Origin: Spirochaetota bacterium
Lineage (GTDB): Bacteria; Spirochaetota; Spirochaetia; SPDA01; B32-G16
DNA length: 44,044 nt
Assembly (NCBI GenBank): GCA_003645645.1
Contig: QNBH01000007.1
Span: forward strand, 1 to 44,044
Direction: 5' to 3'
The notes under the pieces were generated by a model that had not been told where the DNA came from, made no database searches, and was given only the letters and a program-made list of their open reading frames with translations. This document shows positions 22,091 through 26,453 of this stretch, in pieces (the first letter of the stretch is position 1; each line of letters opens with the position of its first letter). Made by a program: the position numbers and the translations under genes.

Positions 22091-22435
22091 TTATATACGC
22101 TTTAGATATCCTCTTATAAATTTAAACAGGCTTATTCCGCCCATAGCCAGAAGACCGATACCTGCAACTGACATGAGTGTTCCGGCAATTCCACCGAGAA
22201 TAGGTATCCCTCCGAGAGCAGTTAAGATACCCGCAGCTGTTATGATCAAACCGGCTTTTCTGTCATCCCGTGAGCCTGATACTCCCAATCCCAAAAGAGC
22301 TATTATTCCACCTATTATAAGAGCGGGTATACCGGCAACGTTGCTAAGAGCAAGGAGCACGATACCTCCTCCGATACCGCCTATCGCCTTACCGCCTTCT
22401 TTTACAAGTGTTTTTCTCGGAACAATATCACTCAT
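22091..22435 (-). CDS. Small Gly/Ile-rich membrane protein
   Basis: 114 residues from ATG 22435, which has GGAGG eight bases upstream; earlier in-frame ATGs at 22534 and 22450 are less well placed, the first lying inside the LCP gene. Three or four hydrophobic segments rich in Gly, Ile and Ala (GIGGGIVLLALSNVAGIPAL, GIIALLGLGV, LIITAAGILTALGGIP, MSVAGIGLLAMGGISLF) indicate an integral inner-membrane protein. I do not recognise a family. It sits between the LCP gene and miaB. Confidence 0.75.
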   Translation of the reverse strand: MSDIVPRKTLVKEGGKAIGGIGGGIVLLALSNVAGIPALIIGGIIALLGLGVSGSRDDRKAGLIITAAGILTALGGIPILGGIAGTLMSVAGIGLLAMGGISLFKFIRGYLKRI

Positions 22436-22464
22436 TGTCTCTACCTCCATACTAATATTAATTA

Positions 22465-23313
22465 TTAATTGATAATTTCTCTTATATACCACCTGATTAA
22501 ATTCCAGTCTTGATTTTTGGGCAGTAGTATCCATGCACCTTTATCAAAACTGTCATCCATTGTAGCCTGTTGCTCTTCGTTTAAAAGATACAAGTTTGAA
22601 TAGGTTTGGTAAAGAACATTTTCTGTGCTTAACACATTGCTGATATCAACCCTCGTGTTATTGAACTCGTTATAAAATTGAACCAGCTCAAAGGGTGTGA
22701 AATTGGTATCCACATATTTTAGAAGAGTCTGAATGAGTTTGTATAGTTTGCCTATATTTGCTAAACCCAATTCTTCTATTCTTTTTTTTACAGCTGTTAA
22801 AATTTTCTGTTGTCTTTCGGCACGATCCAAGTCCGAGGAGGTGTGTCTCGAACGGGCGATGCGGAGTGCTTCCAGCCCCTTTAGACGATGAATGCCCTTT
22901 GGATAATACATAGTGCTCCACCTTCCATCTTCTTTTACTCTGTAGGTAGGATCTATGAGATCTTCTTCAAGCTCTATTTCTATTCCCCCCAGTATGTTTA
23001 TGACATCGATAAAAGCATACATATCGATTAAAATGTATTTATCGATGGGAAGACCTGTTATCCATGATATTTCATTTAAAAAGGCTTCGGCTCCGTATTT
23101 AGCAAATATTACATTAACTCTTCTACCTTTATAAAAGAGGTCTCTGGGAATGCTGATCAGAAAAGTCTTCCCCTTTCTTTTATCTGAGTGTACTAGAATA
23201 ATAGTATCGGTGTTTCCTTCATGAGTTCCACATAGAAGGAAGGAAAAGGTTGACTGTTTTTTCGAGGCGATACCGATTTGGGGTAATTCCGTTGGCAGGT
23301 TCAGTTTTTTTTT
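22465..23313 (-). CDS. LCP (LytR-CpsA-Psr) domain, frame opened by an A10 tract
   Basis: LCP enzymes attach glycopolymers to cell-wall or lipid acceptors outside the inner membrane. The open frame gives 282 residues with a full LCP domain: FSFLLCGTHEGNTDTIILV, LISIPRDLFY, LPIDKYILIDMYAF, and LEALRIARSRH with DLDRAERQQKIL. No ATG, GTG or TTG exists in this frame until the ATG at 23022, which would cut away half the domain. Directly upstream is an A10 run with TGA in this frame. A -1 shift from the upstream membrane gene would fuse the two; alternatively an A9 form of the ATG at 23317 would start it (Met-Lys-Lys-Lys-Leu). The LCP part alone has no membrane anchor, which favours the fusion. Confidence 0.8.
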   Translation of the reverse strand, partial: KKKLNLPTELPQIGIASKKQSTFSFLLCGTHEGNTDTIILVHSDKRKGKTFLISIPRDLFYKGRRVNVIFAKYGAEAFLNEISWITGLPIDKYILIDMYAFIDVINILGGIEIELEEDLIDPTYRVKEDGRWSTMYYPKGIHRLKGLEALRIARSRHTSSDLDRAERQQKILTAVKKRIEELGLANIGKLYKLIQTLLKYVDTNFTPFELVQFYNEFNNTRVDISNVLSTENVLYQTYSNLYLLNEEQQATMDDSFDKGAWILLPKNQDWNLIRWYIREIIN

Positions 23314-24518
23314 TCATTTCCGGAAAAACTATCTCCCCTCTCGGAGTATAAACGATCGGCTTCAGGCATACCCAGAGTTTTAAAGGAGCAAATTAGAACA
23401 TCGTCTCTATCCATAAGATAGAGCTCTGCTGAATGTTTAAGTATTGCAAAAGACCCGATAGGGGTTCCGCTTTTTGTATTCAGGTCAAAATAAAAATACT
23501 CATCATCTTCACGACCGTCTAAATTTATTGTTAAATCTTTTGATTGCAGGAACGAACGAAACCCTCGGTCAACACCAAGTTCCTTGATTTCTTTTTTTAA
23601 AGTGTCTATCTTTTTCTCGACACCACTCCTGGTATCAAGGCCTTTAATTTTATCTAGTAAATCTTCATGAAAAGTTGTAAAACTCCTGTAACTCTTGCCA
23701 TCCAGAAAAAAGGCATTTTCCCTTTTATCTAAAACAGGTGTTATGTACTCCTCTCCCTTCTTGCCATTTAGACTCAAATAGACTCTTGTCTCATTTTCCG
23801 AGAAAGTGTAGGTCAGATCTTTCTTCTTAATTAGCTCCTGGAAAGTACTTCCGGTCTTTAAAGATAAGAACTCTTCGATCTTTTCTCTTGTATTTCGGAA
23901 GTGTTGCTCCAAATCGGTCACTTGAGCTTCGATAAATCTATTAAAATCATCATTTATACGAGAAAAACTCTCTTCTTGTTGAAGGAAAGTAGAAACATGG
24001 AATAACTCTTCTTTATAATCATATTTTATTTCGAAGAACTTATTTTCCCCCTTTAGAAGAGAAATGGAAAAATCGCTCTCTTTTTTTATAGAAAAACCAT
24101 ATCTGTTCTTAATCTCATGAATAAAACCGGATTGGATGAATTCACCGAATTTGATTATCCCCTCATCGAGCTTATTTTTATCTAAAAGCATATCCACTGC
24201 ATCAAAAAAAAGGGGTAGCCTGTTTTCACGGTAATCAGATTCGTCTTGCCTTTTATTATCTCCTAGCGGGTAAGTTCTTACGGGAAGCTGAAGAACCGAG
24301 CGTAACTCTCCGGTATCTTCAATCATTAGAAGGAGATTTTGTTTAATTAAATTTATATCTTCCGAATTGCTTCGAATTTCTCCGGAAAGAGTATCTCCTA
24401 TTCTTTCGATTTTTCCTGTAAGTGTGGAAAGGCGTGAGAAGATGAGTACCGGGAAAAGAACAAGGAGAATCAAGAGAGCAATGCAAACAAGTAAGATTAA
24501 GAGCTTATTCCATATCAA
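23301..24518 (-). CDS. Single-span membrane protein with coiled coil, possible N-terminal half of an LCP protein
   Basis: 405 residues. The start chosen is TTG at 24518, overlapping the purH stop as TTGA with AGAGGAG about nine bases upstream; the longer reading runs back into purH. Residues about 2-26 (KLLILLVCIALLILLVLFPV) form one transmembrane segment, then a coiled coil (about 30-70) and a mixed periplasmic region with repeated beta stretches. The zero frame ends NEKKN-stop at A AAA AAC TGA inside the A10 tract. A -1 shift there continues into the LCP frame. I do not recognise the periplasmic region as a named family. Confidence 0.75.
   Translation of the reverse strand: MIWNKLLILLVCIALLILLVLFPVLIFSRLSTLTGKIERIGDTLSGEIRSNSEDINLIKQNLLLMIEDTGELRSVLQLPVRTYPLGDNKRQDESDYRENRLPLFFDAVDMLLDKNKLDEGIIKFGEFIQSGFIHEIKNRYGFSIKKESDFSISLLKGENKFFEIKYDYKEELFHVSTFLQQEESFSRINDDFNRFIEAQVTDLEQHFRNTREKIEEFLSLKTGSTFQELIKKKDLTYTFSENETRVYLSLNGKKGEEYITPVLDKRENAFFLDGKSYRSFTTFHEDLLDKIKGLDTRSGVEKKIDTLKKEIKELGVDRGFRSFLQSKDLTINLDGREDDEYFYFDLNTKSGTPIGSFAILKHSAELYLMDRDDVLICSFKTLGMPEADRLYSERGDSFSGNEKKN
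23305..23314 (-). other. A10 homopolymer, candidate slippage or -1 frameshift site
   Basis: Ten A residues on the coding strand, ending AAAAAACTGA. In the upstream gene's frame the last codons are A AAA AAC TGA, a heptamer of the X XXY YYZ type directly before a stop. Slipping back one base, or a transcript with one extra A, reads on into the LCP domain. Confidence 0.6.
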
Positions 24519-25765
24519 TGACGAAAACTCCTCTGTCCCGTAAAAACCATGGTGGCATTGTATTCGTTGCAAGCCTGAATGGATTCGTGATCACGAAGAG
24601 AACCGCCTGGTTGAACAACAGCGGTAACTCCCTCCTTAAGTCCAACTTCTACACCATCTCTGAAAGGGAAGAAAGCATCGGAAACCATTACACTACCTTT
24701 AAGACCTCCCCTTAGTCGTGATACTTCTTCCTCTATTTCTTTACGACGGAGCTCCTCTTTAAGGGAATACCAGGAAGTCCTGTAGAGTTCCCAGGAGATT
24801 CTGTCCCTCATTTTTTTGTAGGCCTTATCCCTGGCGATTTCTGCCACCCCAACTCTGTCCTGCTCGCCAGTACCAATCCCCACCGTTACTCGATCCTTCA
24901 CATAAATTACAGAGTTACTTGTAACACCACTTTCTACCAGCCATCCAAATAGCATATCCTCATATTCCCTATCGGTAGGTTTTCTGTTTATTGCATACTC
25001 CTTTCCGTTGAAGGTGGTTCGGGCCAGAGAAAAATCCTCTTTTTTTAATGTTTTTGGTGTAAAGGAAGTCTGGACAATCAAGCCACCATCGGTTAGTGAT
25101 TTAAAATCCAATACCTCTGTACCGATAAACTCATCAAGCCTCTTTATGTTTTCTATCCTCATTACCCTGAGGTTCTTTTTTTTAGAAAGTATATCGAGTA
25201 CGCCTTCTTTATATTCGGGTGCCGCCACAACTTCCAGATAGTTCTCGGCTATGAGCTCGGCGGTTTCAATATCAATTTCACGGTTTATAGCTACAGCCCC
25301 ACCAAAGGCTGCAACACGATCCGCCATAAGAGCACGGTAAAAAGATAGAGAAGGTTTTGAAGCAATGGCTACTCCGCTTGGATTGTTATGTTTTACTATT
25401 ACCGTACAGGGAGAGTCGTTGAAATATCGAAGAATATTGAGAGCGCTGTCAATATCTGTTATATTAATTTTTCCAGGATGTTTACCGGATTGAAGCAGTT
25501 CTACATTTGATGCCAGATATTTTCCCGGCAGAATGGTAGAAACCTCTCCCAGAATAATATTTCCGTTTATAAGTTTATACAGTGCAGCTTCCTGTCCGGG
25601 ATTTTCGCCGTAACGCAAACCTTTCCTCTCTCCCCCTATATTCCACTGTACCTTTTCATAAATAAGGGTTTGTTTGCCACCCCTATCGATAAAGTTTATC
25701 TCCATTCTATCGGGGAAACTATCGGAGTATATTCTCTTGTATATTGAAGAAATCTCCGAGCTCAT
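24515..25765 (-). CDS. purH: AICAR transformylase (stand-alone C-terminal half of PurH)
   Basis: Formylates AICAR to FAICAR with 10-formyl-tetrahydrofolate, the penultimate step to IMP. 416 residues covering only the transformylase half of the usual bifunctional PurH. Family motifs are intact: LRYGENPGQEAALY, VIVKHNNPSGVA with the catalytic Lys-His, and DAFFPFRDGVEVGLKEGVTAVVQPGG ahead of MVFTGQRSFRH at the C-terminus. The ATG lies four bases after the cyclohydrolase stop, in a different frame, with AGG about nine bases upstream; translation is probably coupled. The next gene starts on its stop codon (TTGA). Confidence 0.93.
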   Translation of the reverse strand: MSSEISSIYKRIYSDSFPDRMEINFIDRGGKQTLIYEKVQWNIGGERKGLRYGENPGQEAALYKLINGNIILGEVSTILPGKYLASNVELLQSGKHPGKINITDIDSALNILRYFNDSPCTVIVKHNNPSGVAIASKPSLSFYRALMADRVAAFGGAVAINREIDIETAELIAENYLEVVAAPEYKEGVLDILSKKKNLRVMRIENIKRLDEFIGTEVLDFKSLTDGGLIVQTSFTPKTLKKEDFSLARTTFNGKEYAINRKPTDREYEDMLFGWLVESGVTSNSVIYVKDRVTVGIGTGEQDRVGVAEIARDKAYKKMRDRISWELYRTSWYSLKEELRRKEIEEEVSRLRGGLKGSVMVSDAFFPFRDGVEVGLKEGVTAVVQPGGSLRDHESIQACNEYNATMVFTGQRSFRH

Positions 25766-25769
25766 TATT

Positions 25770-26453
25770 CTAACCTGTTATTCTATAAACTTTCTGTATC
25801 ATGCTAAAATCTATATCCCGGAAATACGAGGATATTACTCTATCATATTCTGCAGTATGGTTAAAGGCTTTTCTTGCCATCAGGAACCGAGTCTTAAAGG
25901 AGATCTTTCCCTTGTTGGATTTGAGTTCCTCAAGTATTACCTTATAATCGGAGGGATCACATAAAGGTACAACCCTTAAAAAATTTTTGGCCGAAGCTCG
26001 AAGCATAGATGGACCCCCTATATCTATGTTGTTCCTGGCATCCTCGGCATTGTCTCCTCTTTCTGCCACGGTTTTTTCAAAAGGATAGAGATTAACCACA
26101 ACCATATCAAAGGTAACACCCCCTACTCTCTCCAGATCTTTCCGGTGAGCTATATTTCCTGGCTCACTCAACAGGCCCAGATAGAGTTTAAAATCAAGTG
26201 TTTTTACAAGACCTCCCTGCATTTCCGGTTGGCCTGTGTAACCGGAGATGCTTATAAGGTTTTCTCTCCGGCTTTGATTTAAGAAAGAGCTAATTTTTTT
26301 GAAAGTACCACCGGTAGAGAAGATTTTTAACTCTGAGTTTATCTCAAATAGCCCATTTACAAGATATTCAAGCTTTTTTTTATCCGAGACACTAATTATT
26401 ACGTTTTGTATTTTTATAAGATCTGTTATCTCTTCTACCCTGTTTCCTGCCAT
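25770..26453 (-). CDS. IMP cyclohydrolase (stand-alone N-terminal half of PurH)
   Basis: Closes FAICAR to IMP. 227 residues equal to the MGS-like N-terminal half of PurH. Seen motifs: STGGTFKKI, PEMQGGLVKTL, VVVNLYPFEKTV, NIDIGGPSMLRASAKN and the domain end FNHTAEYDRVISSYF. The Tyr, Asp and second Lys of the known active site are present. However the usual GRVKTLHPxxHGG reads GLVKTLDFKLYLG, so Arg and both His are changed; the enzyme may be slower, or the site may use other residues. ATG at 26453. It and the transformylase together replace a single purH gene. First gene of its operon, behind a good promoter. Confidence 0.88.
   Translation of the reverse strand: MAGNRVEEITDLIKIQNVIISVSDKKKLEYLVNGLFEINSELKIFSTGGTFKKISSFLNQSRRENLISISGYTGQPEMQGGLVKTLDFKLYLGLLSEPGNIAHRKDLERVGGVTFDMVVVNLYPFEKTVAERGDNAEDARNNIDIGGPSMLRASAKNFLRVVPLCDPSDYKVILEELKSNKGKISFKTRFLMARKAFNHTAEYDRVISSYFRDIDFSMIQKVYRITG

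Follow-up and report, generated by a model that had tools for sequence, protein, structure and literature searches.

A conserved poly(A) tract in an LCP-family gene of Spirochaetia and Patescibacteria and its proposed role in transcriptional slippage

In a typical protein of the LytR-CpsA-Psr (LCP) family, the LCP domain is accompanied by a single membrane segment and a short cytoplasmic part (PMC2632651). The slippage gene studied best is tssM1 of Citrobacter rodentium, where an A11 run without stimulators gives 20 to 25% shifting and both resulting forms are needed (PMC4256274). In many bacteria, slippage-prone runs are avoided once they reach a length of nine (Baranov 2005, PMC1088944). Against this background, we examined a spirochaete LCP gene that is interrupted at a run of ten As. 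We consider it probable, from comparison of sequences and without RNA, peptide, or reporter data, that this is one gene and that RNA polymerase slippage on the A10 run yields two forms of its product. LytR is absent from Antonov 2013 and from those portions of the Atkins 2016 review that were accessible, and nothing relevant was found in the literature on slippage with LytR or Patescibacteria; coverage was incomplete, and this is no proof of novelty.

Layout of the locus and the two parts of the protein

The window (the whole stretch of DNA analyzed, 44,044 nucleotides) carries the gene on its minus strand, with the following features.

24515..25765, minus strand: second half of purH (AICARFT), directly upstream; the purH stop overlaps the N ORF start
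23301..24518, minus strand: N ORF (putative short form), beginning with the TTG at 24518; three helix-plus-strands repeats follow one membrane helix and a coiled coil
23305..23314, minus strand: A10 tract, the proposed slippage site (T10 on the plus strand), recurring in Spirochaetia and Gracilibacteria-class homologues
23301..23307, minus strand: AAAC TGA, the unslipped-frame stop directly 3' of the tract
22465..23313, minus strand: LCP (LytR-CpsA-Psr) transferase domain in the -1 frame, without a start of its own before 23022
22091..22441, minus strand: small glycine-rich membrane protein gene, downstream, with no Pfam match; context only

The TTG of the N ORF (24518) shares bases with the purH stop and is preceded, 9 nt to the 5' side, by GAGGAG. 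An earlier, sequence-only reading of the window had this ORF ending within an A10 run at A AAA AAC TGA, which is correct: its 3' end reads GGA AAT GAA AAA AAA AAC TGA (stop codon 23303-23301; protein tail ...GNEKKN*), the run at 23305-23314 is exactly ten long, and the slippery heptamer A AAA AAC stands in frame immediately 5' of the TGA. The same reading held that the LCP domain has no usable start in its own frame, and this too was confirmed. The LCP frame, -1 relative to the N frame, stays open between 23313 and its stop codon at 22465, and no ATG, GTG, or TTG occurs in it upstream of the ATG at 23022, which falls within the LCP domain. We therefore rejected the idea that the LCP ORF is expressed independently, with a start codon of its own; in most relatives, likewise, no start is well placed. 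One added A or a -1 ribosomal shift would fuse the N and LCP ORFs into a protein of ~685 residues, with EKKKLNLPTELPQIGIASK as the predicted junction peptide (partial forms with trypsin). That a short and a long form could be made in this way, as the earlier reading proposed, is strongly supported by the comparisons below, in the absence of RNA or protein data.

The window genome, a draft of 380 contigs and 3.98 Mb, contains another LCP gene besides this one. Its 3.98 Mb hold just five internal A10 runs (both strands), A9CTGA is found just once, at the LCP locus, and the chance of a sense-strand A10 in a given 130-nt stretch is ~8e-5. Because such runs are rare in the genome and because dozens of relatives have one at the same place, the A10 at the junction is more than chance.

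The neighboring purH consists of two adjacent ORFs (at 25765-25770), the second with its own ATG (25765), and there is no homopolymer there. A separate purH second half of ~420-450 residues is also present in relatives of several families, and in L010, L018, L020, L021, and L025 as well, the LCP gene directly follows the terminal part of purH. This looks like ordinary gene fission; the idea that the purH split is a sign of bad assembly was rejected because relatives share it.

By both domain and fold, the LCP ORF meets the requirements for membership of the LCP family. It matches PF03816 (Pfam LytR_cpsA_psr) with 103 bits (E = 2e-29; cut-off, 24.6) and TIGR00350 with 88.8 bits (cut-off, 62.3), and it retains every residue invariant across homologues, including R54, D55, R148, R151, R153, R161, and R164. 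Foldseek matched the LCP part of a full-length homologue, L095, to TagV, TagU, LcpA, and Cps2A (E of ~1e-13 or better against 3owq, 6uf3, and 6uex). A long LCP-family envelope glycopolymer transferase is the best explanation of what the gene encodes; transfer of a glycopolymer from a polyprenyl carrier is inferred, and there is no biochemistry behind either statement.

The AlphaFold model of the N ORF (pLDDT 87) has a helix over residues 2-75 with a hydrophobic start and a disordered tail (387-405). This agrees with the earlier claim that the upstream gene supplies a membrane segment and a coiled coil; in the window, it is in the joined frame only that a membrane anchor precedes the LCP domain, and the continuous relatives are also anchored. 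The model of L095, an in-frame homologue, consists of a long N-terminal helix (2-73), three repeats of a helix and about five strands each (95-375), a disordered linker (381-401) that contains the tract lysines, and the LCP fold (410-669). In these predicted structures, the tract thus sits in a disordered linker separating two folded parts. Given this position, and given that the N ORF is modeled to fold alone with a disordered end, the short form would be a clean module lacking the enzyme, that is, the membrane-anchored module minus the LCP domain.

The N ORF (23301-24518) represents, in its own right, an undescribed periplasmic three-repeat module with a confident model. It matched no Pfam or NCBIfam family, and its repeats matched no PDB fold at E<1e-3.

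Recurrence of the tract and selection on it

We searched the LCP part against 60 relatives and then against 395 genomes of the class and read 84 loci. In 54 of these 84 Spirochaetia homologues there is no tract and a single frame, and the short form appears dispensable in them, since apparently only the long form is made. The remaining 30 share a run of A8-A12 in one position, 44 to 103 nt before the LCP core, and are either split (16) or in one frame (14). In all splits, the LCP domain is in the -1 frame, the same direction as in the window. Related spirochaetes had been expected to be informative in two ways: a continuous frame or a conserved A run would speak for the sequence-only reading, and two separate genes with their own starts would refute it. 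Both favorable patterns occur among the relatives, and the refuting pattern was sought and never found, all relatives having either one frame or a split at the same A run.

The same architecture and tract place recur, split or in frame, in named genomes of Peregrinibacteria, Gracilibacteria, and Peribacteria. When 192 genomes were sampled class-wide around the Gracilibacteria locus, 24 had a homologue, and the tract is present in 22 of these 24, of which 13 are split and 9 have one frame. Wherever a tract-bearing genome has a named record, it is a metagenome assembly, with no finished isolate among those seen. On a maximum-likelihood tree built from the LCP domain, with the tract left out, the Patescibacteria clade (L153-L172) is nested inside Spirochaetia (joint clade support, 93/88). 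This topology suggests transfer of the LCP gene between Spirochaetia and Patescibacteria.

Two genomes in this set deserve separate mention. One from Peregrinibacteria (G399) has two copies of the gene, on C61 and C98; in one copy the frame is continuous, with 724 aa open, whereas the other is split, with 319 aa open. Another of 0.9 Mb, labeled Nitrospirota (L169/G398), has an LCP gene 0.04-0.08 branch lengths from a Gracilibacteria one, and its bin is probably misnamed or mixed.

Runs of nine or more As are concentrated at the junction: 39 lie in the 130-nt junctions before the LCP core of 98 genes versus 1 in the remaining 188 kb of these genes, which makes the runs ~577-fold denser at the junction. 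KKK is found at the junction in none of 57 tract-less genes, and lysine triplets at the junction occur solely as a pure A run, even at 63% GC. AAG is the commoner lysine codon in several of the tract genes (22 of 25 in L006, at 63% GC). We rejected the possibility that the lysines, and not the tract, are what is selected, since KKK is never written with AAG at this site. We also rejected the tract as a trait common to LCP genes, as the 400-residue LCP paralogues have no run longer than 7.

Tract presence changed at least nine times on the LCP tree, and so did the state of being split or in frame among the 39 tract rows; with phase changes counted on the tree, the reading frame comes and goes while the tract persists. 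This is well illustrated by two loci with A10 runs. L169 reads GAG TAC AAA AAA AAA ACT TTA GAG and is open, and L157 reads GAT TCA AAA AAA AAA CTT TAG and stops; a one-base slip would convert the product of either to that of the other. In the +1 frame, a stop follows at a median of 1 codon past the tract, compared to a null mean of 17 (Fisher p=5e-5; 26 chosen loci). Shared ancestry was corrected for only in part, both in the counts of changes and in the nearness of stops. Downstream, the part of the LCP gene after the tract has a dN/dS of 0.07-0.13 in six related split species, which meets the expectation for a frame under protein-level selection. Comparison, then, shows the tract to be the conserved element regardless of the DNA frame, and it likewise demonstrates the place of the tract, the frames, and that the tract, the stop, and the LCP domain are under selection.

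A second, unrelated gene of the window genome has the same feature. There, an A10 run at G000:C5:5882-5891 (L203 position 1500) splits MGLLERALRENKGKPFSEDTDGEI from a 340-residue body in the -1 frame. The family, which we call MGLL after the start of its N-terminal peptide, combines this peptide with a body of 320-360 residues, has the tract after the peptide, and matches no Pfam family above cut-off. An A9-A11 tract is present in 14 of 18 loci examined (relatives L218-L232); 3 of these are in frame, and the other 11 are split, every time in the -1 frame and so in the direction seen in the LCP gene. In G039 (63% GC), the two exact A10 runs are those of the LCP gene and the MGLL gene. An A13 run (L245, G039:C31:12689-12701) was seen 6.6 kb from the LCP tract of this genome, in an apparently intergenic position.

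Proposed RNA polymerase slippage and its alternatives

We propose that RNA polymerase slips on the A10 run and so would produce a pool of mRNAs with A9, A10, A11, and so on. In the window genome, the templated A10 message would end in KKN* and give the short form, comprising the membrane helix, the coiled coil, and the three-repeat periplasmic module, and an mRNA with one extra A would be translated into the full-length protein, LCP domain included. In relatives that are one nucleotide off in phase, the templated message would give the full-length protein and the slipped one the short form, such that either DNA phase would lead to both proteins. The short form could scaffold, hold, or titrate the full-length transferase, although this is a guess, and the switch of envelope polymer attachment that the earlier reading thought possible is likewise hypothetical. 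The tract meets the criterion for a slippage gene, namely a conserved homopolymer of nine or more at a frame junction, and tract lengths of 9-12 agree with the slippage threshold (PMC1088944). That slippage occurs in the window gene is inferred on the pattern of tssM1 and is unmeasured for the RNA polymerase of any spirochaete or Patescibacteria; that the polymerase rather than the ribosome is responsible and that the ratio of the forms matters are also inferences.

The alternative that survives best, though we regard it as unlikely, is a programmed -1 ribosomal frameshift on A AAA AAC or A AAA AAA, with the mRNA keeping the genomic number of As. The A AAA AAC directly 5' of the TGA, in several relatives as well as in the window, is what such a shift would use, any long A run includes A AAA AAN, and one IS family has a proven A_AAA_AAC without an established stimulator (PMC4066793). 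The heptamer requires just 7 As, however, and all of the split genes have 9-12. Lineages differ in how the run is phased against the codons, and in homologues with one frame it is loss of a base, not a -1 shift, that leads to the nearest stop. Nor did we find the usual accessories: there was no signal for a downstream hairpin in 21 split genes (mean z of -0.31 for split versus -0.57 for no-tract genes), and a Shine-Dalgarno-like motif was present in only 6 of these 21 genes, without a conserved hairpin or a consistent spacer. The run lengths, the two phases, the varied codon phase, and the lack of a hairpin or Shine-Dalgarno-like element together favor RNA polymerase slippage. The sequence-only reading had allowed either a -1 shift or an extra A; the frames would join by either route, and it is the transcriptional one that fits better.

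Slippage might also occur without any selection for two products, as a chance indel tolerated through slippage rescue, or the gene might be a drifting pseudogene. Frameshifted genes of insect endosymbionts are indeed rescued by slippage at long poly(A) (PMC5009743), yet decay seems to us quite improbable here. Both parts of the protein are under purifying selection, KKK is written as pure A against the codon bias, two phyla are involved, the other frame runs into a stop at once, and genes whose DNA is in frame anyway retain the tract.

Phase variation, in which changes of tract length in the DNA would toggle the LCP domain on and off, was one of the alternatives left by the earlier reading, and we now give it very little weight. 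A9-A12 runs are mutable in DNA and relatives do show both phases, but six related rumen-type species are all split with the same A9 and still have an LCP dN/dS of ~0.09, the phase change in Peregrinibacteria (L157 versus L169) altered the flank and kept A10, and tract lengths never exceed 12. Least credible of all is its other alternative, a one-base assembly or sequencing error, for although the genome is a 380-contig metagenomic draft, homopolymers are the usual site of error, and a second A10 in the same genome likewise splits a gene, the same split in a single direction is seen in many independently assembled genomes, the downstream part is under purifying selection, the conservation of the tract in one-frame homologues would be left unexplained, and the MGLL gene is split at its tract in relatives too, which weakens this explanation and suggests a wider habit.

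Beyond slippage in this one gene, it is possible that spirochaetes and Patescibacteria share a slippage code in which pure A9-A12 tracts encoding linker lysines set the ratio of truncated to full-length product in several unrelated genes (LCP and MGLL at least), with the tract rather than the frame being inherited and passed between the phyla along with the LCP gene. We offer this tentatively, as it could somewhat more easily prove wrong than right. If the main proposal, slippage in the LCP gene, is right, the stutter of RNA polymerase would set the output of an envelope-building enzyme in two phyla, of which one is poorly cultured, and gene annotation there would split the gene at the tract and lose the transferase. 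The genes with and without a tract, split and in frame, would constitute a natural experiment on why a cell wants a truncated LCP partner. The MGLL gene suggests that tract use in spirochaetes is wider than the few known bacterial cases.

Comparison with known systems

The LCP part shares its sequence, fold, and invariant arginines and aspartate with TagT/U/V, LcpA, and Cps2A. Compared to a typical LCP protein, the window protein has ~400 extra residues, which contain the undescribed three-repeat periplasmic module.

Among slippage genes, tssM1 of C. rodentium is similar in that a membrane-anchored envelope protein is interrupted just 3' of a long A run, an extra A restores the long form, two lengths result, and there is no ribosomal stimulator. 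It is a different gene, reported as uncommon, with the tract found besides only in Yersinia pseudotuberculosis tssM3 (PMC4256274), whereas the LCP tract extends over many families of two phyla and occurs in either phase. The mxiE gene of Shigella flexneri likewise consists of two ORFs, and slippage that adds one base gives the longer protein (PMC1088944), but it encodes a transcription activator and the run is of U rather than A. Thermus thermophilus dnaX has a conserved A9 and two product lengths, made in a set proportion (PMC1088944). The proteins are unrelated, and the templated frame of dnaX is that of the full-length product, whereas the LCP gene is found in the DNA in either phase.
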